Translations under genes and position numbers: made by a program
The notes under the pieces: generated by a model
Databases searched by the model: none
Told to the model about the DNA's origin: nothing
What the model saw: the letters and a program-made list of their open reading frames with translations, nothing else
Assembly (NCBI GenBank): GCA_944386495.1
Contig: CALXBE010000018.1
Location: 1-49,673, forward strand
Source of the DNA: an uncultured Gemmiger sp.
GTDB lineage: Bacteria > Bacillota > Clostridia > Oscillospirales > Ruminococcaceae
Direction of reading: 5' to 3'
DNA length: 49,673 bases
Shown here: positions 36,767 to 49,673 of the stretch, piece after piece
Numbering within the stretch: position 1 is the stretch's first letter
Layout: each line of letters starts with the position of its first letter

Positions 36767-39700
36767 TCAAGTTTTCCTTTTTTTACACCTTCTTCCTTGC
36801 ATCAGGAGCAGGACCGCTGCACCTGCTGTCAGGCCCAGCCCTGCCGCAGTAAAGGGAATGGTTCCCCCTCCGCCGGTCTTGGGGATGGCATAGGTCCGCC
36901 GGTTCTGTGCCCGAATCTCAATTCGACGCTGGTATACATTCTCCTGCTCGTTGTCAAAAATAACTTCCTGAGGATCAAAGCCCTCCATCCGGTATCCTTC
37001 AGCCGGCCGGAGTTCCATAAGGTAGTACCGTCCTCTCAGCAAGCCGTCCCACTGTATCTGGCCCAGGGCATTGCTGGCAGCCACATCGTAAAGGTAATAG
37101 GTCTGGCTGCCCACCTGCTGTGTCATGGCAGGCTTTTCGTCCTGTTTCAGGCCCTGGATGATGGTATCATCCTGATACTCCTCCTGAGTCATCTGATCCC
37201 GCTGCTCTATACTGTAGAGTGCAAAGACCGCACCCTGGAGCTTGAGAGAAGGATCTTCATTATCCACCTTGGTTACCAGGAGTTCCCGCTCTACCATCTT
37301 GTTGGTACACTGCAGAAGCAGGGATGTGGCACTGTTATGCACAAAGGTGTAACTGTTGGTGGTGGAATCGTTGAGACGGTAGAAGTCATAATCCTTGTAG
37401 TCTCCCAACTCAACAATGGTATAGGATTGGCCCTTTATCCAGGTCCAGGGAGTTGTATGCGCAACCCAGCTCCCATTCTCGTACCCATATTGGTAGAGGT
37501 CGTTGAGTTTCCTGGTTGCAGAGCTGCTCTCCCCTGCTTTTACAGTGGTCTCCAGATAGGTGAACTGCCGTCCGGCGGCCTGAAGTGCCTGCGCAAAGGC
37601 AGCTTCATCTGCAGGGGACTGTCCCTCCAGCGCTTCTCCTGTGTAGATAAGGAATCTGAAGGTCTGATTCTGTTCTACGGCTGTCTCCGTGCCATCTGCA
37701 TCCACGACCACCTTTTGGAGCCGCGGTGTTTCGGGGATCATGATACCCACCTCCAGAGGTGCGGACTCCAGTTCAACCGAAGCTGTCTGCGGTTTGTAAT
37801 GGTATCCAAAGGAGTTCCATGCGATTTCACCTGCTGCGGGGGTCTCTCCCTCCGCGATCTCGCATTCAAAAGTAACAAACAGATTGGCCCGCTGAGGAAC
37901 GATGGCTTCCTGTCCCGCCTTATGGCCAATACACAGCCGAATGGACCGGGAATCATCCTGCACCGCAGCGCTGGTCCATGCGTTGGTTCCCTTCCAATCC
38001 TCCTGGGTGAACTCTGTCTTACTGTCAAATTCCACCGTGTAATCCGTTCCCTGGTTCAGAATCACCTTGTTACCGGTTTCTGTCTCATACCAAACCGTCA
38101 CCTTGGGGTCTTTCTTGAAATTGACCTGGAAGTCACTGTATCGCTCCATATCCGGGTTGAAGGTGAGATGGTCTCCCACCTGGGGCAGATTATCAATGAG
38201 ATTGATCCACTGGATAGCCTGTTGATCCGGAGAAGAGTTGCCTATCTGCAGGGTATACCGGATACTCCTCTGATCGGTATTCTCTCCTTCTCCCAGAACT
38301 ATGTACCGTACTGCCTGGGAGGAATCGGTCTTGTTCTCTTCGTCGCCAATTTCGGCAACCCCTTTCAGGGAGGAGGTGAAGATACCGTCCGACACTGTAA
38401 CGGCTGCACGGGCCTGAATTCCTCTGAGACTTCCGTCCGCATTGTAAACACAGGTACCATCCACCACAGAAGAGGGATCAAACTCCTGCTGCGGATTGAT
38501 AACCGCATCGTTGATAAAGGTGCTGTAGCGAATCTGGTTGGAGGTATTTTCGCTCCAGAGGGTAATTTCAGCACGGCCAAAGCCCGGAATTGTTCCCAAG
38601 GGATTGATCCTTCTCATCACATCTTCGTAAATCATCGGGAAAGTAAGGGTCATGGTCATATTTTCCCCATCGTAACCAAAGCCTACCAAAAGCTGAGCCT
38701 CTTTTACATTATTGGTTCCAACCACTACAGGATCTTCCCCTACCGATATGGTAACAGGGACTGCTCCTTCCACAAAGAGCGGCTGCACCGTCACACTGGA
38801 TACTTTGGAAGCCGGGTCATTTTGGTCCTCTCTTGTATATCCGGTGATTTCAAACAGAGGCGTATCAACCTTTACATTTTCCGCTGCCTCGGTATTGCCG
38901 CTGGAATTGTAAATGGTAAGATCTACCTGCCCGGTAAAGGTGTAGGGAGCAGGAAGGGTATCTACCAAGGTGTATCCACGGATGGAGGCCACATCGCTGT
39001 TGGTTCCGGTGATCTTCCACTGGATATCATCCGAAGAATAGGCTACTCCGCCACACTCTTTCTCAGAACCGTTCTGATCCCGTACCTTTGTAGCCTGCTT
39101 GGTAATGCCCGGCAAAATATCGCCCTGTTGAATGGTCACTTCCGAAGCTACCCACTGCTGGCTGTCACTGTATTTTGTGCTGGTAAATCCATTCTGTGCT
39201 GCCTGGTCTGCGGTCCATACCTTGCAGTCGCCATCGTTGGCCGGCCCCCACCGTCTGGTCGTGGTAACATTCTGGCTGCTGGCCACTACACCGGCACCGC
39301 TCTGGTCATAGAAGGGCATGGCCACAGTGTTATGAACTTCCTCATCCAGCAGGCTTGGATCGTATTGATTATTCAACCGGCAGGTATATACCAGGCAGAT
39401 TCCTGCGCCCGGATCAAGATAGCACATATCCAGGTTTTCATCATAATTAATGGTCCGGTTATCATGCACTTCGGGATGTTCAAAGGTAAACCGATACCAC
39501 CAGCCGTCGCCGGTTTCATCCTCATAGCTTTCCGCATTTACCTCCACTCTTTGCAACTCGTAGGAATCCAGAGGCTTCCCTGCCAGTATGATTTTCTGAC
39601 CAGTCGTATCCGATTGTTCCTTGGTCAGAAGGGCGGGTTTGGGCTTGCCGAAAGAAGAGGGGATGGTTATACGGGTCCAATCCGGCCCGGAAATAATTCC

Positions 39701-42700
39701 CTTGAATTCCACATTATCTCCCTGCACATGATCGTATACTTCAGTGAGATACAAGGGCAGATTTCCATCGTTATAGACCATAAGGTAGTAGGTCACATAC
39801 CGCTGATTATCTTCCAGAGCAGGATAGGTCATACAGGTATCAAACCGGTTGGCTACCATGTACTGTTGCTGTCTTTGGTTCCACTGTATGGTCTCAATGC
39901 TGTAGACACCTTTCTGGATCACAGCGTTTACCGGTTCGGCCAGATAATGATAAACAATATCATCCTTGTCTCCAACAACAAAGGAATTGCTCAGTCTGGC
40001 GCCGCCGTTTTTCAGACAGTATTCCTCATACAGGCCTCTTCCGTCCTCTGTCTTCACCGTGTTGTCCGGGAACACCAGATCCACATACATGACCAGCTGG
40101 GTCCCGCCGGGAGCCTTGATGTCATCCAGCCAGACGATCCGGTACTTGCCCGTTGGTTCATCGTATCTGATTTCCCAGTCAAATACGGCGCTTTCCGGCA
40201 ATTCTACTCCACTGTCTTCCGGGTAACACTTGTATTCATAGCGCAGGTTCACATTGGTTTTATCCCACTGGAACAGGCCGCAGGTATCCGGCAGTACGTC
40301 GTAGACCATACCGCCCGGGGCGATCCCGTCCGTTCCCTTTACACTGTTCAACAGGCGAAGACGATAATGTACCGTTTCCCCTTCCCGGACTACGGTCTCA
40401 TCATCTTCCTCGATGCTGCCGTCTTCCAGAAGGATTTTTTTGTCCATGGTCATTCCCACCAGAGGGAACCATCCGGTAGGATACCACAAGCGGTCATTAT
40501 CCCGGTCATTGAGATAAACCACATTGTTCATCCAAAGTACTTCAAAAGCTTCCGGTTCCTCCACCGCAAACTCCACACTGGTAAGCGCCTTGTAGCTGAT
40601 GGTAAATTCCTGGAGATCCTCTTTGCTCTTAAAAAGGGAGGAATCCAGATACCACTGGGTAATGGTTGCATACCCCCCAGAAACCACCATGTTGTCTCCA
40701 TCGGGCAGGGCAAACTCTTGGCCTGCGAATTCTGCTTCGCCATCAGACAAGATATACTTTTCCGGATTGGGCACATCGTTGTCCAGATACACGGTTACGT
40801 TATCCGCATAGGTATAGCAGTGATCCTGACCGTTACTGTCCTGCCAGGGGGTGCTGCTGACAAACACCCCGTCGTATTTGAAGCTTTCCTCTCCCTCCCG
40901 GAGGTCCATGACGAAATATTCAACGCCATCTACCTCATAGGTGTTCATGGGACGACTCTGGTCGTTCGCCCAGGGTCTGTCCTGATTCAGTTCCACCGGG
41001 ACCAGCATAGCCTGCACGCCGCTCATCACATCCACAATGGGAAGGCCGTCAACACCCCAGTTTTTCATTCCGGTACCATCCGCATTGGATCCTACCCAAA
41101 CCTTATAATCAAAGACAGATTCATCGGGGATTTCACTTACTTCTCCAATGGGAACACCGTCCAGGAATTGTTCCTTATAAATATAGTAGTCATTATAAAG
41201 GTCAATGTCTCTCTCACTGATGAGGGGATTGGACGAGCCCTCGACAAAAAGCCTTGCAGTGTTTTCGTCATCTTCAGTTCGACCATATCCTACATAAGCC
41301 TCAGGCGGATAATCTCCCTGCTGGCGATTGAAAAAGCCAAGCGTATCCGACTTCAAAGACTGGAACGAATCCCGCAGCTCAGTGGGGATAAGCATGCGGA
41401 TCATCTCACCGCTGCGAACAGGAAGGGCTCCGCCGGGATAGCTGGTAAAGTCCCAGTTCACCTTATAAACGGTCTCGTTCACCACTGCAAAGCCTATCTC
41501 ATCCAGGTAATTTTGCAGATTTCCCTGGGCAACCAGCTTTGGTTCTCCCCCGTCCAGGCTTACAGCCAGCTGCTCTCCCTGACTTTGGATCACAACGGTA
41601 TGGTTGTCCGTATATACAGGCTGTTGCGTCTTATCCTCCGGCAATTCATCTGCGGCCAAAGCTGTAAGGGTGACTTGGGTAGTACCGTCCACCGCAGTTA
41701 CGGTACCCAAATTCATTTTAGCATACAGCCGTACCTTGTCGATGGTGAGAGTCAGGTACTGGTTGTATTCCTTGTTGTTGCAGGGACTTTCCTGCCATTC
41801 GGTGGCAAAGAAAAGCTGTTCTATTTCTTCCCCGTCAAAGAAGAGACGGGTCTGAGAGCCGGTCATTTCATCGTCCAGCTTTGTGATTGCCCCGGGGCGC
41901 ATGCCGTCGTTGGTCACATCAATATAGAGATAGTAATCATTGCCGCGATACGGCACGAGCGTACTAACCGGATGCTTGGTCACCTTTACCCGTGCATCAC
42001 CAGGTTTAATGGTAATAATGGCATCATTGCTGGTCAAAGTGGCCGGTTCCGAGTAAGCATAGGAAATTTGCGTTTCCACATTGATCCGCATTTCCTGATC
42101 AATTTCCGCATTGTATTCCGTAGTGGTATCAAAGTTTTCTTTGGGGATCAGGAATTTGACCGGGGTTCCAGAAATAGCGGTGGAAGGCAGATCGTTTTCA
42201 CCCTCTGCCGCACGCTGGGAAAGATAGAAAATCAGGTTTTCACCCTCTACTTCCAAACGGTTGGGGACCACATAATTACTGTTGAAGGCAATGATCTCGG
42301 TTTCTCCCGCATAGAAAGAATTTCCCCGCACCGTTACATTTCCGGCCTTGCAATCATCCAGAATCGATTTGAGCCAGGTCATTTCCTCCGGCATGGTTAC
42401 AGAGACCTTATACTGTGCCGTCAAAGCGTTGTCCCGGGCAAGAGCAGAATAGTCATTATAAACCGAACGGGGCAGCTTGCTCAGATGGACCGTGCCGGTC
42501 ACATCATAAACCAGGTTGGCGGGCTGGCCTACCCCTGCACGCTGCAGTTCATTTTCTGTCCGGTCCAGTTTGGTAGTCAGGCTGTAAGGAGTGCGCTCCA
42601 CCTCCCAGAACATTTCAAAATAGTCCCCATACCGGAAGGCCTTTTCCTGGTCATCCTTCCGATACATTTCCACCCAGGCGATCACATGACCGCCGTCCGT

Positions 42701-45700
42701 TTCGGGTGCCTGATACTGGAACTGGAAAATGGGAGCGTAGGTGATGCCTGGAGTATCCGGAACAAACTCTACACAGTAGCGCCGTTCCTCTGCATCATCC
42801 AAGGTCATTTTATAGCGAATGGTGCCGTTGCCCGAACTGTCATTGTAGGTATACTCGGTATCCAGCTCCATGCCCAGTCTGGCCAGATTCAGATCGCCTT
42901 CCGGCGCAATAAAGTACAGGCGGTAAATGTAATTGTTTACCTGTGCCCCGCTGATGCTGAAATTCAGGGTCACAACCGAGCCGGTGCCGCAAATGAGCAC
43001 ATTGTTCTCTACTTGATTAGGGTCAGGCCGTGATCCCATGTCGAGCCGAACGGTCGCCTCATCTCTGTTGCCAAAGAGTTCTTTTGCTGTAATCGTAATA
43101 TTGTCATCGGGAGACAGGCGGCTCACATTATCCGGAATTTCAACATCGGTAGTATTTCCTGCCAGCCCGGTATTCAGGAAAGGTACGATTCCCAGGGAGG
43201 AGAACAGTTTTTCTGCTTCTTCCACCTGGCTATGGCCATTGACACTGACAAGGGTCTGGCAGTCTGCCAGGGCGTAATTGGAGAGGCTCACCTTGCCGGG
43301 CTGGACAAATTCAAGGGAAGTCAAAGCCTTGGCAGAGCCAGCAGCCCAGGAATTTACCTGGGTGACCGAATAGGTTTTGTCTCCGCTGGCAATGGTTTCA
43401 GGAACAGTGTACTCTGTCAGAGTAGCCGGCAGATAAGCCAGCGCTGCCTCAAGAGTCTCCTCGTTGAGAAGATAGACCACACCTTCTGCCGTCACATGAG
43501 CGGGACCGGAAAGAAGGTTGAGGGGCTGAACTGCCACCTGATTTTCTGCGCCCTCGCCCAGGACAAACTCCACCTGGTAAGGACCACCCTCAAACTGCAC
43601 GGTTCCATCTGCGGCATCGATCCCGGCCAGCAGGTTTGCCGCAAGATTCAAAGTTCCGTTTTCAGATTTGCGCACATGGATTTCCAGTTCCTCTGCACCA
43701 TGGTTCAGAATATTGGCTCCGACCTGGGTCAGCTGATCCAGAGAGAGTGTGAGCTTTTTCAGAGAGAACATCTGGTACAAAGCTCTTTCATCCAGCCGCT
43801 GCAGATTTTGAGGAAGCTCCAGCTCCGTGACTTGCTTGCAGTTGTAGAATGCATCCATTCCAATGGCTGTGAGAGAAGAAGGCAGCAGGATCTTCTGCAC
43901 ATTGATATCATCATAAAACGCTTCTTTGGGGATCTCTGTCAACCGATCAGAAACGGACAAGTCTATTTTGGTCAGCATCGGGCACTGATAAAACGCGCCT
44001 TCTCCCAGCTGTGCCACATTCAAGGTTCCAATTTCTGAAAGATTATCACACTGATAGAATGCTCTGGCGCCGATTCTCTCCAGATTGCAGCCGGTCATAT
44101 CAAAAGCATCCAGAGTCTTGCAGCCATAGAATGCCTCATCCCCAATACTGGTCAGATTGGATTTATCCGGCATAACGATTTGGAGCTTCTCCTGATTCTT
44201 AAAAGCGCCTGCTCCAATGCTTTCTACCGTCCCTGCAATGACCACACTTTCCAGGGTGGCCATCCGGACATTGCTTACGGCAAAAGCATTGTCTCCAATG
44301 CTCCGCACACCTTCGGGCAATTCGATTTGGGTAACTTTCGTTCCTTCGAACGCACTGCTGCCGATGTTTTGGATGCTTCCGGGGAACAGAACCTCCGACA
44401 AGTTGGAGTTGTTGTAAAATGCTTTTTCTCCAATGCTCACAAGGCCCGGAGCCGTGCTCAGATCCACAGACTTGAGTGCAGTCCTCTGGAAGGCGCCCTT
44501 CCCAATTTCTTTCAGGGATGCGGGGGCCGTAAAGGTCTCTATTGCAGTTCCCTGGAGGGCGTTCTCATGGATTTTCTCTACAGAGTCCGGCAACTCAAGC
44601 GTTTTGATGCTGGTGCACTCTGAAAATACGCCTTCTGGATAGTTTCCTCCCAGTTCCTTCAGGTTGATACTGGCAGAAAAGTCCACATTCTCCAGTTCGG
44701 AGCAGCCATAAAATGCTTTGCCGGACACAGAGGTCAATGTCGCAGGAAACTTCACCTCCGTCATGGACATCATGGAAAAGGTCAAGGGCGGGATGGTTTC
44801 AAGTTTGGTATTGCTCAGATCCAGTCCGCTTTCGGTCAGGGGCATATAAGAGCCATTGAATGCAGCTAAACCGATAGATTCCAAAGTGCTGGGAAGGGAC
44901 AGAGAAACAACCTTTGAGTAGTCGCCAAGGAAGGGAGAGAAGGCATTCATAGAGATGGTGGTAACCCCTTCCCCAAGAACGATCCGATATATCTCGTCTG
45001 TCCAGGACTTCCAGGGGGCACTTCCCAACCCAATCACGCTGGGCATAGGACCGGTTCCGGAAATGATCAGGTCATACAAAGGCTGATCTTCAGTGGACTC
45101 AGCATCCTCCACCAATTTCCAGGTCAGGGTGCACTCAGGATCGATCTCAGTAAAATCTCCTTCTTGAAACACATCTCCTGCCGCAAAAGTGGTGACCATT
45201 GAACCGTCTACAACATCTTCCCCGTTGGGAGCAGGAGTAGGCTCTACAGTGGGTGTTGCAGTGGGCTCAGCCGTAGGCTCCACAGTGGGTGTGGCAGTGG
45301 GCTCAGCTGTAGGCGCAGCAGTAGGCGTGGCACTGGGCTCTGCGGTAGGCTCCGCAGTGGGTACTGCAGTAGGCTCTGCGGTGGGCGCAGCAGTGGGAGC
45401 CGCTGTGGGGGTGGCGGCAGGCTCACTGCTGGGCGCAGGGGTGGCCTCCGTGCCGGTATCGCTGGTTTCATTCATCAGCGAGACCAGGGTATAGCATCCG
45501 TCACTATGGGTATGTTCCTCCACAGCGCAGACCAGTGCTCCTGTTTCATCATAGCAGGAGGTGTCATGGGTATGCTCCTGCTTTCCACAGCTCAGGATAA
45601 GAGCCTGATTTTCCAGGGCCTGTACAGGCTGAACAAAGGTCATCAGCATGCTGAATACAATGCAGACCGAGAGCATTGCCGCTATGCCGCGCTGTTTCCT

Positions 45701-45739
45701 GCTGTGATTTTTTTCACGGTAATAGTTTGTGTATTCCAT
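36767..45739 (-). CDS. Giant pilus-tip adhesin, LRR and SpaA domains, IPKTG anchor
   Basis: A 2990-residue exported protein. Signal peptide (about 1-41). Two HTH-type motifs, EHTHDTSCY and EHTHSDGCY, with paired cysteines (about 51-83). A PTAE/PTAT-type linker (111-171). A BspA-like LRR_5 array (about 200-740, repeated units such as SIGDEAFYGCKTLDAFD). A long Ig-like/stalk region then runs to about 2820. A SpaA/Cna-B domain with YYLMELRPAEGYRMEGFD comes before IPKTG (near 2952), a membrane helix and an RRCKKRKT tail. LRR_5 arrays mediate host or cell binding in other bacteria; with its sorting motif and place ahead of the backbone pilin it is the likely tip subunit. The ribosome site is modest (GGAG very close to ATG, AAAGGA further up). 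No frameshift was seen over 9 kb. Confidence 0.9.
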   Translation of the reverse strand: MEYTNYYREKNHSRKQRGIAAMLSVCIVFSMLMTFVQPVQALENQALILSCGKQEHTHDTSCYDETGALVCAVEEHTHSDGCYTLVSLMNETSDTGTEATPAPSSEPAATPTAAPTAAPTAEPTAVPTAEPTAEPSATPTAAPTAEPTATPTVEPTAEPTATPTVEPTPAPNGEDVVDGSMVTTFAAGDVFQEGDFTEIDPECTLTWKLVEDAESTEDQPLYDLIISGTGPMPSVIGLGSAPWKSWTDEIYRIVLGEGVTTISMNAFSPFLGDYSKVVSLSLPSTLESIGLAAFNGSYMPLTESGLDLSNTKLETIPPLTFSMMSMTEVKFPATLTSVSGKAFYGCSELENVDFSASINLKELGGNYPEGVFSECTSIKTLELPDSVEKIHENALQGTAIETFTAPASLKEIGKGAFQRTALKSVDLSTAPGLVSIGEKAFYNNSNLSEVLFPGSIQNIGSSAFEGTKVTQIELPEGVRSIGDNAFAVSNVRMATLESVVIAGTVESIGAGAFKNQEKLQIVMPDKSNLTSIGDEAFYGCKTLDAFDMTGCNLERIGARAFYQCDNLSEIGTLNVAQLGEGAFYQCPMLTKIDLSVSDRLTEIPKEAFYDDINVQKILLPSSLTAIGMDAFYNCKQVTELELPQNLQRLDERALYQMFSLKKLTLSLDQLTQVGANILNHGAEELEIHVRKSENGTLNLAANLLAGIDAADGTVQFEGGPYQVEFVLGEGAENQVAVQPLNLLSGPAHVTAEGVVYLLNEETLEAALAYLPATLTEYTVPETIASGDKTYSVTQVNSWAAGSAKALTSLEFVQPGKVSLSNYALADCQTLVSVNGHSQVEEAEKLFSSLGIVPFLNTGLAGNTTDVEIPDNVSRLSPDDNITITAKELFGNRDEATVRLDMGSRPDPNQVENNVLICGTGSVVTLNFSISGAQVNNYIYRLYFIAPEGDLNLARLGMELDTEYTYNDSSGNGTIRYKMTLDDAEERRYCVEFVPDTPGITYAPIFQFQYQAPETDGGHVIAWVEMYRKDDQEKAFRYGDYFEMFWEVERTPYSLTTKLDRTENELQRAGVGQPANLVYDVTGTVHLSKLPRSVYNDYSALARDNALTAQYKVSVTMPEEMTWLKSILDDCKAGNVTVRGNSFYAGETEIIAFNSNYVVPNRLEVEGENLIFYLSQRAAEGENDLPSTAISGTPVKFLIPKENFDTTTEYNAEIDQEMRINVETQISYAYSEPATLTSNDAIITIKPGDARVKVTKHPVSTLVPYRGNDYYLYIDVTNDGMRPGAITKLDDEMTGSQTRLFFDGEEIEQLFFATEWQESPCNNKEYNQYLTLTIDKVRLYAKMNLGTVTAVDGTTQVTLTALAADELPEDKTQQPVYTDNHTVVIQSQGEQLAVSLDGGEPKLVAQGNLQNYLDEIGFAVVNETVYKVNWDFTSYPGGALPVRSGEMIRMLIPTELRDSFQSLKSDTLGFFNRQQGDYPPEAYVGYGRTEDDENTARLFVEGSSNPLISERDIDLYNDYYIYKEQFLDGVPIGEVSEIPDESVFDYKVWVGSNADGTGMKNWGVDGLPIVDVMSGVQAMLVPVELNQDRPWANDQSRPMNTYEVDGVEYFVMDLREGEESFKYDGVFVSSTPWQDSNGQDHCYTYADNVTVYLDNDVPNPEKYILSDGEAEFAGQEFALPDGDNMVVSGGYATITQWYLDSSLFKSKEDLQEFTISYKALTSVEFAVEEPEAFEVLWMNNVVYLNDRDNDRLWYPTGWFPLVGMTMDKKILLEDGSIEEDDETVVREGETVHYRLRLLNSVKGTDGIAPGGMVYDVLPDTCGLFQWDKTNVNLRYEYKCYPEDSGVELPESAVFDWEIRYDEPTGKYRIVWLDDIKAPGGTQLVMYVDLVFPDNTVKTEDGRGLYEEYCLKNGGARLSNSFVVGDKDDIVYHYLAEPVNAVIQKGVYSIETIQWNQRQQQYMVANRFDTCMTYPALEDNQRYVTYYLMVYNDGNLPLYLTEVYDHVQGDNVEFKGIISGPDWTRITIPSSFGKPKPALLTKEQSDTTGQKIILAGKPLDSYELQRVEVNAESYEDETGDGWWYRFTFEHPEVHDNRTINYDENLDMCYLDPGAGICLVYTCRLNNQYDPSLLDEEVHNTVAMPFYDQSGAGVVASSQNVTTTRRWGPANDGDCKVWTADQAAQNGFTSTKYSDSQQWVASEVTIQQGDILPGITKQATKVRDQNGSEKECGGVAYSSDDIQWKITGTNSDVASIRGYTLVDTLPAPYTFTGQVDLTIYNSSGNTEAAENVKVDTPLFEITGYTREDQNDPASKVSSVTVQPLFVEGAVPVTISVGEDPVVVGTNNVKEAQLLVGFGYDGENMTMTLTFPMIYEDVMRRINPLGTIPGFGRAEITLWSENTSNQIRYSTFINDAVINPQQEFDPSSVVDGTCVYNADGSLRGIQARAAVTVSDGIFTSSLKGVAEIGDEENKTDSSQAVRYIVLGEGENTDQRSIRYTLQIGNSSPDQQAIQWINLIDNLPQVGDHLTFNPDMERYSDFQVNFKKDPKVTVWYETETGNKVILNQGTDYTVEFDSKTEFTQEDWKGTNAWTSAAVQDDSRSIRLCIGHKAGQEAIVPQRANLFVTFECEIAEGETPAAGEIAWNSFGYHYKPQTASVELESAPLEVGIMIPETPRLQKVVVDADGTETAVEQNQTFRFLIYTGEALEGQSPADEAAFAQALQAAGRQFTYLETTVKAGESSSATRKLNDLYQYGYENGSWVAHTTPWTWIKGQSYTIVELGDYKDYDFYRLNDSTTNSYTFVHNSATSLLLQCTNKMVERELLVTKVDNEDPSLKLQGAVFALYSIEQRDQMTQEEYQDDTIIQGLKQDEKPAMTQQVGSQTYYLYDVAASNALGQIQWDGLLRGRYYLMELRPAEGYRMEGFDPQEVIFDNEQENVYQRRIEIRAQNRRTYAIPKTGGGGTIPFTAAGLGLTAGAAVLLLMQGRRCKKRKT
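45227..45409 (-). repeat. 12-bp coding minisatellite (PTxE/PTxT units)
   Basis: About fifteen degenerate four-residue units (PTAA, PTAE, PTAT, PTVE) encode the tip adhesin linker. A 36-base higher-order unit (PTAEPTATPTVE) occurs twice in near-identical form. The linker length could vary between strains. Confidence 0.85.
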
Positions 45740-45781: not shown

Positions 45782-46366
45782 TCAAATTGTACCTAAATCC
45801 GTCAGGGGCCAGACTCTGAAAATAACCTTTCCCACGATCTGGTCCGAAGTGATGGTGCCAATCATGCTCAGCCGGCTGTCTGCCGCCGAACTCCGGTGAT
45901 CCCCCATCACAAACAAGCGGCTTTCCGGCACCTGGTAAGGATAACTCAGGTCTGAGTCTCCGTATTCCTTTTCCTCCAGGTAGGGTTCCTCAAGCAGTTC
46001 TTCGTCAACATAGACGCTGCCGTCCTCCTTGATGTCTACCCATTCTCCGGATGTCGCGATCACCCGTTTCAGCAAAATCTGATTATTGTAATAGAAGGCG
46101 ACCACATCTCCTGTTTTGAACTTTTTGCTCCGAACGGCCACCACATATTGGCCTTCCTCCAGGGTAGGATTCATGCTGCCGCCGTCTATCCGCAGAACCG
46201 ATACAAAGTAGGTTGCAAATAACACCGTTGCTGCGGCCGCCACCACCAATATCCAGATGGTGCTCCACAAAGCACTCCAGCAGCTTTTGATATGTTTTCG
46301 CCTTTTAAGTTCCTGGTCAAGCTCTTCCACCGTGGGGCGGGGAGCTGATATTCTTTCGGTTGACAT
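45782..46366 (-). CDS. Type I signal peptidase of the pilus operon
   Basis: A 194-residue LepB/SipS-type signal peptidase. An N-terminal membrane helix (about 33-56) precedes the catalytic Ser64 in DGGSMNPTLEEGQ and Lys100 in QILLKRVIATSGEWV, and the conserved VMGDHRSSAADSR. It should remove signal peptides of pilus proteins outside the membrane. Dedicated peptidases in pilin loci are known in Gram-positive bacteria. Two start codons are possible; 46366 has AAAGGA ten bases upstream, while ATG at 46375 is also in frame. It lies 42 bases before the adhesin gene. Confidence 0.92.
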   Translation of the reverse strand: MSTERISAPRPTVEELDQELKRRKHIKSCWSALWSTIWILVVAAAATVLFATYFVSVLRIDGGSMNPTLEEGQYVVAVRSKKFKTGDVVAFYYNNQILLKRVIATSGEWVDIKEDGSVYVDEELLEEPYLEEKEYGDSDLSYPYQVPESRLFVMGDHRSSAADSRLSMIGTITSDQIVGKVIFRVWPLTDLGTI

Positions 46367-46387
46367 ACGCTCCATTTCCTTTCCCCG

Positions 46388-47597: not shown

Positions 47598-48524
47598 ATG
47601 GCCAACCTTCTAACTTCTGTTTTGAACTTTTTTCAAAGCAGCTCCTCATCGCAGGAGGTGAAAAGCGGGAGCAAAGACATGAACCCGGAATTGAACAAGG
47701 AGACCCCATCAGCGGTTGGCGCGTTCCGGGAGAAGATTGCAAAGCAGGCCGAGGCGATATGGGCTGATGGCCCCCACCCCACCGACATCTTCACCGGCTT
47801 TGTTCTATTGTCCAAGGGTACATGGGATCAGGAGCAGTTCACCCGGGATATGAAGGAAAAGTGGGACATCATCGTGGATGAATGTGATGCCAGCGAAGAA
47901 AAGGGCAATAATATACTGGTATTCCGAGTAGATGATATGCTGGCTGCCGTCAGCCTGATCGACTCTCCTATTCCCGGTGGCGAAGCCGAAGCAAACGCCA
48001 AAAACAACTATATGTGGTCGGATGCAGTCAAAGCCGCCAAGGAACACCGCAGCCACCTGATAGTGGCGGTCCTTGGCAAAGAAGAAGATTTACTGGAAAA
48101 GGGCAAGCTGTTCACCAAAGTACTTGCCGTCTGCTGCTGTCAAAAGTATGCCACCGGCATCTATACCAGCGGCGTGGTATTTGAGCCTCGGTTCTATGAG
48201 GCTTTTGCCAACATGATGAAGAAAGGTGAACTCCCCATCTTCAATTGGGTCTGGTTCGGCTTCTGGCAGAACAAAAAGGGTATGAATGGTTACACTTCCG
48301 GTCTGGAGGCGTTCGGCAAAGAGGAAATGGAGGTCCTGGGCACCAATGCTGACCCAAGCGATTTGCGGGGCTTTTTGGCCAGTCTTGTGTCCTATGTACT
48401 GGAAAATGATGTGGAACTTCATAATGGAGAGACCATTGGCTTTTCCGCAAATGATAGGCACACCATCACCCGCAGCCCCGGTGTCGGCTTACCAAAGAAT
48501 CAGATGACTCTGAAAATTTCCTGA
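47598..48524 (+). CDS. DUF4261-domain protein
   Basis: A 308-residue soluble protein. After a Ser-rich N-terminus (about 1-35) it carries a DUF4261 domain. The N-terminal half has FTGFVLLSKGTWDQEQFTRD and LAAVSLIDSPIPGGEAEANA; the C-terminal half has FNWVWFGFWQNKKGMNGYTS and GLEAFGKEEMEVL. Proteins of this family occur near immunity or toxin genes in some bacteria, but their function is unproven. AGGAG lies a rather long 12 bases before the ATG. Its leader has a strong hairpin. It stands alone, with no toxin partner visible. Confidence 0.85.
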   Translation: MANLLTSVLNFFQSSSSSQEVKSGSKDMNPELNKETPSAVGAFREKIAKQAEAIWADGPHPTDIFTGFVLLSKGTWDQEQFTRDMKEKWDIIVDECDASEEKGNNILVFRVDDMLAAVSLIDSPIPGGEAEANAKNNYMWSDAVKAAKEHRSHLIVAVLGKEEDLLEKGKLFTKVLAVCCCQKYATGIYTSGVVFEPRFYEAFANMMKKGELPIFNWVWFGFWQNKKGMNGYTSGLEAFGKEEMEVLGTNADPSDLRGFLASLVSYVLENDVELHNGETIGFSANDRHTITRSPGVGLPKNQMTLKIS

Positions 48525-48591
48525 ATTTCCGCGGACGGATGCCCGAGAGACAGCGCTGAAAATAATCCTTCCTATAAGGCACCCTGAAAAC

Positions 48592-48623
48592 AAAAAATCC
48601 GGTGTTCCCAGATTTGCACCGGA
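48592..48623 (-). terminator. Minus-strand intrinsic terminator without an assigned gene
   Basis: On the minus strand TCCGGTG pairs with CACCGGA over twelve bases and is followed by TTTTTTG. No gene is assigned upstream on that strand before the repeats and tRNA-Lys. Confidence 0.6.
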
Positions 48624-48781
48624 GAAAAATAGAGTTTGTTGAGGAACTCATCCATTCCGAAAAGCCCTGGCCGCCTTCCCGTTGTGGTGGATACCTTCTG
48701 CCGGATATTACGCCCTTCCATGAAGGTGCGGAAAGCCAGCGGGAGGTTGCCCAGTGGAAAAAAGAGAAGAAACAGGAATAA
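48602..48781 (+). pseudogene. C-terminal gene fragment
   Basis: A frame of 59 codons ending in PFHEGAESQREVAQWKKEKK-type sequence, with EFVEELIHSEKPWPPSR before it. It looks like the natural C-terminus of a protein. There is no credible start or ribosome site, a stop lies shortly upstream in frame, and a plus-strand terminator follows 12 bases on. It is most likely the remnant of a deleted gene. Family not recognised. Confidence 0.35.
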
Positions 48782-48793
48782 GAGTATATCAGA

Positions 48794-48833
48794 GGCGAGG
48801 TGTCATCCAACAATGGTGACATCCCGCCTTTTT
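48794..48833 (+). terminator. Terminator after the gene fragment
   Basis: GGCGAGGTGTCA pairs with TGACATCCCGCC (one G-T pair, one mismatch) over eleven bases, followed by five T. Confidence 0.8.
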
Positions 48834-48953
48834 GCGTTCATATAGCTCCTTTCCTCCCTCGGGCAGAGCGATTGGCTTCTCCGGGCTCGAATATAACAAA
48901 TAATCTGACCCTATCTTCTAAGGGAAAATAAGTTGGTTGATGACTTTATAGAG

Positions 48954-49080
48954 TTCCCGTAAAAAGTTGCGCAGCAAGATTTTATGGGGAAAAGGAGTTG
49001 GGACAGAATGAGTAAGAAGCGATTTTAAACTATTTAAAACAAAAAAATCGCTGCGAACGATATGCCGTCCGCAGCGACGC
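48954..49080. repeat. Structured repeat module A
   Basis: Outer stem TTCCCGTAAAA/TTTTATGGGGA (48954-48964, 48980-48990) around TTGC-GCA-GCAA. An AT-rich second stem AGCGATTTT/AAAATCGCT (49018-49052) and a CGCTGCG/CGCAGCG hairpin (49049-49076) follow. Same architecture as modules C and D, different sequence in the stems. Confidence 0.65.
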
Positions 49081-49174
49081 CGCGACGGATGAGGCCGCCC
49101 CGGAGGGGGAAGTGTATCGGAACATACCCAATGAAAAATAATAGCAAAAAAGAAAGCCACCGCTGGGGCTCCTA

Positions 49175-49205
49175 TGAAAGGTTGCAACACAAATAGATTG
49201 TCCCC
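49175..49205. repeat. Degenerate repeat module B
   Basis: GGGGCTCCTATGAAAGGTTG and the following bases resemble the first stem and TTGC core of the other modules, but its right arm has decayed (GATTGTCCCC). No downstream hairpins are preserved. Confidence 0.5.
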
Positions 49206-49239
49206 GGTAGCATGCGCCCAGTCCCGGCACCCGCGGCCT

Positions 49240-49266
49240 AAGAAACAGTCCACTGGACTGTTTCTT
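49240..49266. repeat. 27-bp intergenic palindrome
   Basis: AAGAAACAGTCCA, one central base, then its exact complement TGGACTGTTTCTT. It lies between modules B and C. I associate this CAGTCCA/TGGACTG core with dispersed intergenic repeats in Oscillospirales genomes; that is recollection, not a search result. Confidence 0.8.
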
Positions 49267-49286
49267 TCCCGCTGACTCAATGGGGC

Positions 49287-49401
49287 CCCCGGAGAAGATT
49301 GCGAAGCAAGATTCTCTGGGGAAGTGGAGGAATAACGGAGCGCTCTGAGAAATATCTTGACCACAGGTCAGATATTTTGAAGGCAGCGAAGTACATTCCG
49401 A
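49287..49401. repeat. Structured repeat module C
   Basis: Stem CCCCGGAGAA/TTCTCTGGGG around TTGC-GAA-GCAA (49287-49321), then GGAATAACGGAGCG. Second stem AAATATCTTGACC/GGTCAGATATTT (49350-49377) with one bulge, then GGCAGCGAAGTACATTCCGA. The module order matches module D. Confidence 0.75.
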
Positions 49402-49478
49402 CACTATCGGCCTGTTCTCGTCCGGAAGGCAAGCCAAAAAGAACACCCGCAAGTCGGGACACGACGTTCTCTGGGGGC

Positions 49479-49595
49479 CCCCGTGAAAGGTTGCAAAGCA
49501 AAATTTCACGGGGAAAGCGAGGAATAACGCAGCGGTATAAGGAAAGCCCCAGGCCGAAGCCTGGGGCTTTTTGAATGGAGCGAAGTCCATTCCGA
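49479..49595. repeat. Structured repeat module D
   Basis: Stem CCCCGTGAAA/TTTCACGGGG around TTGC-AAA-GCAA (49479-49513), then GGAATAACGCAGCG. A perfect second stem lies at 49543-49570, then hairpin GAATGGA-GCGAAG-TCCATTC from 49573. It is the best-preserved copy and the closest to tRNA-Lys. Confidence 0.8.
49543..49570 (-). terminator. UUCG hairpin downstream of tRNA-Lys
   Basis: On the minus strand AAAGCCCCAGGC-TTCG-GCCTGGGGCTTT, a perfect 12-base stem with the very stable cUUCGg loop. Only a short T-run (TTT) follows, so it may be a terminator or a 3'-processing signal for the tRNA. It is also the second stem of repeat module D. Confidence 0.6.
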
Positions 49596-49597
49596 GC

Positions 49598-49673
49598 TGG
49601 TGCACTTCCAGGGACTCGAACCCTGGGCCCACTGATTAAGAGTCAGTTGCTCTACCAACTGAGCTAGAAGTGC
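49598..49673 (-). tRNA. tRNA-Lys (anticodon CTT)
   Basis: A complete 76-base tRNA, including encoded CCA, ending exactly at the window edge. Acceptor GCACTTC pairs with GAAGTGC. The D arm holds AGCTCAGTTGGTAGAGC. The anticodon stem ACTGA/TCAGT with loop CTCTTAA gives CTT, reading AAG. The T arm is CCAGG-GTTCGAG-TCCCTGG-like. It is transcribed leftward, toward the repeat modules. Confidence 0.95.

Follow-up and report, generated by a model that had tools for sequence, protein, structure and literature searches.

Structured and probably mobile two-hairpin DNA elements at tRNA genes and other gene ends in Gemmiger and related bacteria

What is the row of hairpin-forming modules that runs into a tRNA-Lys gene at the end of a contig from an uncultured Gemmiger sp.? 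The stretch of DNA that we analysed (the window, 49,673 nucleotides) closes with about 720 bases of units on the + strand. They are followed by a minus-strand tRNA-Lys (CTT) gene (49598..49673), which anchors the array and forms the contig end. A reading made from the sequence alone had described three modules (A, C, and D) and a decayed module B beside this tRNA. We found the same row again, and all four modules share one orientation.

Module C (49282..49401, + strand) consists of GGGGC, stem 1 (49287-49321), a GAG linker, and a rod (49329-49399). Module D (49474..49596, + strand) has the same parts, with stem 1 at 49479-49513 and the rod at 49521-49593. One base separates D from the CCA end of tRNA-Lys, so the row stops there. 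Module A begins with stem 1 (CCCGTAAAAAGTTGC-GCA-GCAAGATTTTATGGGG, 48956..48989, + strand). Its linker and second half (48990..49079, + strand) are of another unit type and include a terminator-like hairpin read toward the minus strand; a terminator consensus scan places a minus-strand terminator at 49078-49047. A unit type that resembles this second half adjoins tRNAs in L165 and L276 and is also found in L016. So, the TTGC-NNN-GCAA stem 1 that had been proposed as the start of every module is indeed common to A, C, and D, but the rest of the proposed order does not extend to A, which shares only stem 1 and the linker with C and D. Module B (about 49165..49205, + strand) is the remnant of a unit start, with the 5' arm of stem 1 only. 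It is placed at the cut point of a former terminator (GCCACCGC..) whose uncut version is present in contig G000:C4. G000:C4 also holds a copy that is 97% identical to D over 131 bases, and this contig likewise ends at tRNA-Lys. Between B and C (49240-49266) there is a perfect 13-bp hairpin (AAGAAACAGTCCA-C-TGGACTGTTTCTT), and similar hairpins precede units in the congener G002. Farther off in the window, an open frame of 2990 aa on the minus strand (36767-45739) contains leucine-rich repeats of the BspA type and a SpaA-like domain; a signal-peptidase-like frame (45782-46375) adjoins it.

The sequence-only reading had counted three hairpins per module. In the minimum-energy fold of the + strand, C and D each form two: stem 1 and then one long rod. 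The ATTCC of what had been taken as a separate GCGAAGT-ATTCC hairpin pairs with a GGAAT about 65 nt upstream. Thus, GGAATAACG-AGCG, the second stem, and GCGAAGT-ATTCC make up a single rod, in which the second stem is the tip and GCGAAGT-ATTCC is the right arm. The rod pairs in the order GGAAT/ATTCC, AC/GT, a GNA/GNA loop, GC/GC, a 2x2 loop, UAU/AUG, a tandem GA loop, and a variable tip. In D, the tip (GGAAAGCCCCAGGC-CGAA-GCCTGGGGCTTTTT, 49541..49572) is a bidirectional stem like that of an intrinsic terminator, flanked on either side by runs of A and T, and most copies have A and T runs at the tip. (For C, the terminator consensus scan listed weak forms; the tip of D was not listed.) When compared with dinucleotide shuffles, the fold of C has z = −5.8 and that of D z = −6.8, and none of 200 shuffles folded as well. 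For module A, folded from 48958, z was −2.6, and 3 of 200 shuffles did as well. A three-way-junction model of the rod, with the right arm as its own hairpin, was used to build our search model R1 and was then dropped as weaker. This right-arm hairpin has 1 of 7 pairs doubly changed in alignment A1 and 5 of 7 in alignment A4 (score 0.173 vs. 0.097 for shuffles), and it is the predicted local fold of D's minus strand. An insert of about 60-65 nt (GCRCCCGCAGGYGCGTTTCGAGGCCAACCGCC..GGCGGC..GGGCCGAGAT) occupies a nearly constant position within the linker of units in L024, L028, L036, L050, and L052, which represent two genera; similar sequence was found behind a unit in L289.

Is this fold under selection? 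The sequence-only reading had argued so from stem arms that change together, and we found strong covariation in three alignments: stem 1, the rod, and 68 copies from the family f14 (probably Oscillospiraceae). For the rod, 22 of 24 modelled pairs are doubly changed across the 71 copies of alignment A4, a count that, like the others given here, is inflated by the relatedness of the copies. Also, 93.9% of cells are paired, and the covariation score is 0.369, as compared to 0.155 for shuffles and at most 0.089 for slid pairings. (A4 was drawn from the first 90 of 94 matches of at least 35 bits; 8 were skipped for odd length or identity, and 11 more copies, mostly inner array units, were left out, a choice that favours intact structure.) Without the tip, 10 of 12 pairs are doubly changed, and the score for the outer rod is 0.317 vs. 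0.157. In the tRNA-Glu arrays, for example, GC/GC has become AT/AT on both sides, and remote copies have entirely different outer stems; the GNA/GNA loop and the tandem GA loop are each retained in 55 of the 71. In stem 1 (alignment A3, with 51 of the 55 extracted stems), 6 of 15 pairs are doubly changed, 98.4% of cells are paired, and the score is 0.246 vs. 0.155, while the number of pair types is not above that of shuffles (75 of 500). RNAalifold found the same two hairpins in ten remote copies, with 17 of 35 pairs doubly changed. An alignment of the 68 distinct copies from f14, fitted to the model, has double changes at 31 of 35 pairs. (Alignments A2 and A7 are fitted to their models.)

Wobble pairs give a hint of which strand folds. 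In stem 1, G-U cells outnumber A-C cells 50:2, or 22:2 without the dominant pair, and in the tip the ratio is 19:8. The outer rod says little about the strand because its ratio of 77:20 falls to 22:20 without one pair.

The units are present in many genera of the order, as a search of the genome and its relatives for further copies showed. In the window's family, R1 (E ≤ 0.001) had matches in 34 of 247 genomes and 24 of 126 genera; C scored 79.8 bits and D 82.5 bits. A narrower pattern was found in 33 stretches, and its named carriers include Gemmiger, Fournierella, Faecalibacterium, and Hydrogenoanaerobacterium. Order-wide, model R2 had matches in 23 of 394 genomes and 20 of 169 genera, with weak rows that are doubtful. 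(L293, L294, L296, L298, L299, and others like them, with R2 E values of about 1e-4 to 1e-6, look like plain terminators by eye and are not counted as members.) A third model, R3, was seeded with ten remote copies that all share the linker and the logic of the rod, nine from f14 and one (L297) from genus g16 of the window's family. Among 17 chosen sources, R3 recovers D (43.6 bits, E = 2.6e-8) and C (42.7 bits, E = 4.3e-8) of the window. In f14, R3 (E of 1e-5) matched 102 of the 150 genomes searched, from 80 of 106 genera. At least 28 of the f14 genomes have at least 10 matches and the top number among the matches listed is 25, and these are lower bounds per genome because the best 24 first-look candidates were scored in each.

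Does this family correspond to anything known? With Rfam release 15 at the gathering threshold, the window, 5 relatives, and 20 f14 loci gave only tRNA, tmRNA, 5S rRNA, and T-box, and a weak scan of 48500-49673 gave nothing credible except the tRNA. The exact pattern had no match among viral contigs, and phages had no match either; three plasmid records have the pattern, of which two are from Subdoligranulum. We found no published account of the units in titles and the openings of abstracts (from sources outside preprints and most subscription journals). They appear to be a widespread and so far undescribed family of small DNA elements with a strictly conserved two-hairpin fold, and they are probably mobile.

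To see where the units lie in the window's family, we took 94 R1 matches of at least 35 bits from the window, L016, and 80 fetched regions. The sequence-only reading had raised the possibility that copies end at tRNA genes, and 41 of the 94 indeed stop no more than 3 nt from the 3' end of a complete tRNA, on the opposite strand, at 18 anticodon types. Another 3 end at a tRNA that is cut by the contig end and 6 at a 3' fragment of a tRNA; 19 are followed by another unit, 2 stop at a contig end, and the other 23 lie elsewhere. (By eye, several of these 23 are in arrays or near tRNAs.) The claim of adjacency rests on the fixed spacing: the modelled unit end is one base from the CCA end of the tRNA in 40 of 41 cases and two bases in the other. 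A 10-nt copy of the tRNA end was present on the left side in 0 of the 41 tRNA-abutting units, and the G000:C4 array contains an internal 14-nt copy of the tRNA-Lys end. We found no mobilising enzyme beside units in these flanks; when open frames were clustered, those that recurred were units read as frames and seemingly syntenic genes only. Integrase (PF00589) is encoded in 17 of 17 genomes, and by eye few integrase genes are within about 1 kb of a unit (for example, in G043:C23 and G218:C55).

The arrays have a direction. Units of different types (working names A, B, C, E, and F) succeed one another in one direction, and the inner units of many arrays stop at GTCCA or GTCCAT, while the tRNA-side unit goes on with TTCCGACG. 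Exceptions, which keep ATTC or more, are module C of the window, the inner D-like copy of G000:C4, and the tRNA-Glu arrays. Two comparisons show addition on the tRNA side. At tRNA-Gln, G010 has a single unit; in G144, that unit is cut after GTCCA and a type-B unit follows at the tRNA. Similarly, D of the window occupies the place of TTACGGGTGTTCTTTT, the proximal half of an older terminator that G002 retains. Also, the tip stem is stronger at the tRNA: its mean energy is −23.0 kcal/mol in 50 units at tRNAs or pieces of tRNAs vs. −16.2 kcal/mol in 19 units that are followed by another unit (P = 1.8e-4), and the paired fraction is 0.985 vs. 0.904 (P = 2.7e-4), in copies that are not independent and whose relatedness inflates this test of decay. 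The weaker inner tips would fit a terminator that was used by the tRNA and then abandoned once a newer unit arrived.

In f14, the units show another kind of attachment. We inspected 60 regions with 68 units, picked by rank and spread among the matches listed. At their right ends, 6 units meet the 3' end of a tRNA, 2 the 5' end of tmRNA, and 2 (a repeated locus) the 5' end of tRNA-Lys. Another 11 have an upstream copy of their right flank (in 2 of the 11, this is a repeat of the array itself), and 47 have neither an RNA gene nor a duplication. A right-flank repeat scoring at least 20 was found on the left in 10 of 66 units, compared to 0.4% of exchanged pairs. For nine of the 68 units, from 8 of the 60 regions, the gene end on the left is that of a long open frame, and this 3' end is copied directly to the right of the unit. 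The copies are 23-80 bp long and have the stop codon within them or adjoining. With three earlier loci included, 10 of 11 duplication loci have frames of 266-483 codons; the frame at L303 has 81. (At least two of the contexts with duplications, L365 and L402, are the same as those at the earlier loci L327 and L331.) In 11 of the 12 duplicated rows, the right copy begins at the second base past the end given by the model; in the remaining row, it begins at the third. Nothing but one or two units and short extra stretches lies between the copies at the 11 loci. Duplicated 3' ends are presumably those of phosphoglycerate kinase, triosephosphate isomerase, and flagellin, as read from the C-terminal peptides.

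The sequence-only reading had suggested looking for empty sites in relatives; one came to light, at a protein-gene insertion. L352 has a 39-bp copy, and in its relative G744 the gene leads straight to the next gene, with neither the unit nor the second copy. (The other seven relatives shown differ in the intergenic stretch.) Three further observations concern individual sites. In L367 and L385, from two genera, the same kind of gene end (C-terminal ..GVACLLD., phosphoglycerate kinase by eye) bears two successive units. In L315, L318, and L368, units immediately precede the 5' end of tmRNA, so the tmRNA promoter must be upstream of or within the unit. Finally, in L359 (G662:C27), a unit seems by eye to lie inside an open reading frame, soon past a signal-peptide-like start; palindromic elements lie within open reading frames in some other bacteria.

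Because copies abound, covary, end at tRNAs, and have an empty counterpart at one site, the idea of a non-autonomous mobile unit, which was one option of the sequence-only reading beside a structured RNA and a processing signal, gains support in the form "structured and probably mobile." The outcome that would have spoken against that reading, a lack of both further copies and covariation, did not occur. The two hairpins, the attachment to several kinds of gene ends, and the gene 3' end duplication in f14 go beyond that reading. Starting from what was observed (the fold and its covariation, the exact placement, the arrays, the tips that are weaker at a distance from the tRNA, the duplications, and the empty site), we propose that the units are non-autonomous mobile elements that supply fresh terminators to tRNAs, and we consider this explanation the probable one. 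The element would be about 120-130 bp, without a protein gene, and its defined part would be two hairpins on one strand: stem 1, which has about 16 bp and, in most copies, a purine mismatch, and the rod, with GNA/GNA and tandem-GA internal loops, a variable tip, and an end near GACG. The strand that folds may also be the working strand, with an enzyme supplied in trans. New copies would still insert at gene ends, with the GACG side facing the anchor. At tRNA genes, a new copy would come to lie directly at the 3' end, usually with the loss of some bases that were formerly there, and repeated rounds of insertion would build the one-way arrays. If the tip acts as the terminator of the tRNA transcript, then the tRNA-side copy would be kept intact and remoter copies would decay. 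In f14, the element can sit between two copies of a protein-gene 3' end, and the gene stays intact. Some observations do not follow from this proposal. The older right end is not always lost (see the three exceptions above), no left-hand 10-nt copy of the tRNA end accompanies the tRNA-abutting units, and most of the f14 units have no RNA gene or duplication beside them. Also, the units might have spread by recombination or with islands.

The role of islands deserves weighing, as the modules could instead be scars of integrative elements. Islands that integrate into the 3' ends of tRNA, tmRNA, or protein genes bring their own gene end and terminator, and their decay could leave rows of modules and copies of gene ends. 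G043 has an example at tRNA-Gly: the island carries a 25-nt copy of the tRNA end on the side away from the tRNA, the unit has been displaced to that side, and the contig with the tRNA also encodes an integrase. Islands thus account for some of the displaced copies and tRNA fragments. The 6 tRNA 3' fragments beside units, the 14-nt copy within the G000:C4 array, and the position of the examined duplications at gene 3' ends point the same way. However, the G043 island has its own, different terminator, and the smallest insertion is only about 120 bp plus a 39-bp copy. Also, site-specific integrases need a particular target, while the units have the same one- or two-base joint at 18 anticodon types. 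Islands do not readily account for one unit type at so many anticodon types, and we think it unlikely that they are the main explanation. Alternatively, the units could be a fixed, cis-acting trailer of tRNA operons (a conserved bidirectional terminator or a regulatory RNA) that is inherited vertically and does not move. This would explain why so many copies are at tRNA ends, with a terminator-like tip that is weaker away from the tRNA, and why the same tRNA loci are occupied in several genera. It is at odds with the many copies that have no tRNA, with the ordinary terminator at tRNA-Gly in G266, and with arrays at one tRNA that vary among congeners. The orientation varies as well: units are on the opposite strand at tRNA 3' ends and on the same strand at the ends of tmRNA and protein genes. 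The f14 contexts have already weakened this alternative, and it seems improbable to us.

Two particular mechanisms of movement can be considered as well. The units could be folded single-strand recombination sites, as in integron attC, with a tyrosine recombinase acting on the + strand and arrays growing at the tRNA. The strand bias of stem 1, the imperfect rod with its conserved unpaired centre and variable tip, and the one-way growth at a fixed anchor are what such sites would give. We nevertheless regard this as very improbable because no R and L boxes are read in the arms, because there are no cassette genes, because the anchor side bears the tail of the new unit after an addition rather than that of the old one, and because long copies of gene ends would not be expected. 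The other route involves RNA: the units could be counterparts of SINEs, with a structured RNA whose DNA copy, made by a reverse transcriptase from elsewhere (in trans), would be placed at the ends of abundant RNAs. The targets would be tRNA, tmRNA, and highly expressed mRNAs; the regular end (GACG) would be derived from the RNA, target duplications would be long and variable, and the target gene would survive. The strand bias, the regular right end, and the gene-end copies of variable length are compatible with an RNA-mediated route, which we consider improbable. If the units did move in this way, they would be an element type that, to our knowledge, is not known from bacteria.

If our preferred explanation, of mobile elements that insert at gene ends, is correct, then the units would be a mobile source of tRNA terminators. 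They offer a system for studying polarised growth at tRNA ends and the duplication of gene 3' ends. They may also be a cause of some contig breaks at tRNA genes, as both arrays of this Gemmiger genome end their contigs.

How do the units compare to known systems? Bacterial MITEs and other small mobile sequences are non-autonomous, non-coding, and dispersed, sometimes with terminators, and the units resemble them in the first three respects. Unlike in MITEs, and in particular those of DDE transposons, the ends of a unit are not inverted repeats of each other (GGGGCC.. vs. ..GACG), and the flanking copies, where present, vary from 23-80 bp, while MITEs have short ones of fixed length. The tRNA 3' fragments and the duplicated gene ends at junctions recall the attachment sites of genomic islands at tRNAs, but here the insertions are the size of a unit, with no room for an integrase, and one unit type occurs at many unrelated targets. 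Integron attC sites have inverted core boxes (RYYYAAC / GTTRRRY), which we did not see in the unit arms GGAATAAC and GTCCATTCC. Eukaryotic SINEs are structured and non-coding, with one precise end, a less regular other end, long and variable target copies, and a link to tRNA; in contrast, the units have no poly(A) tail and are bacterial. REP elements mobilised by RAYT flank a RAYT transposase gene, and beside units of the window's family no gene recurs apart from seemingly syntenic ones. REP elements of the GTAG and CGTC super-families are short, non-coding palindromic repeats, many of them near gene 3' ends, and the CGTC repeats have stems of 8-9 bp and loops of 4-5 nt (PMC3733652). Compared to this description, the units are longer, at about 120 bp, and have two hairpins, namely a rod of 24 modelled pairs with internal loops, including GNA loops, and a second hairpin alongside. 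They also differ in their exact placement at RNA ends and in the gene-end copies of f14. Like the CGTC repeats as described there, most units do have CGTC beside the palindrome on the tRNA strand (CCA-CGTC-GGAATGG).
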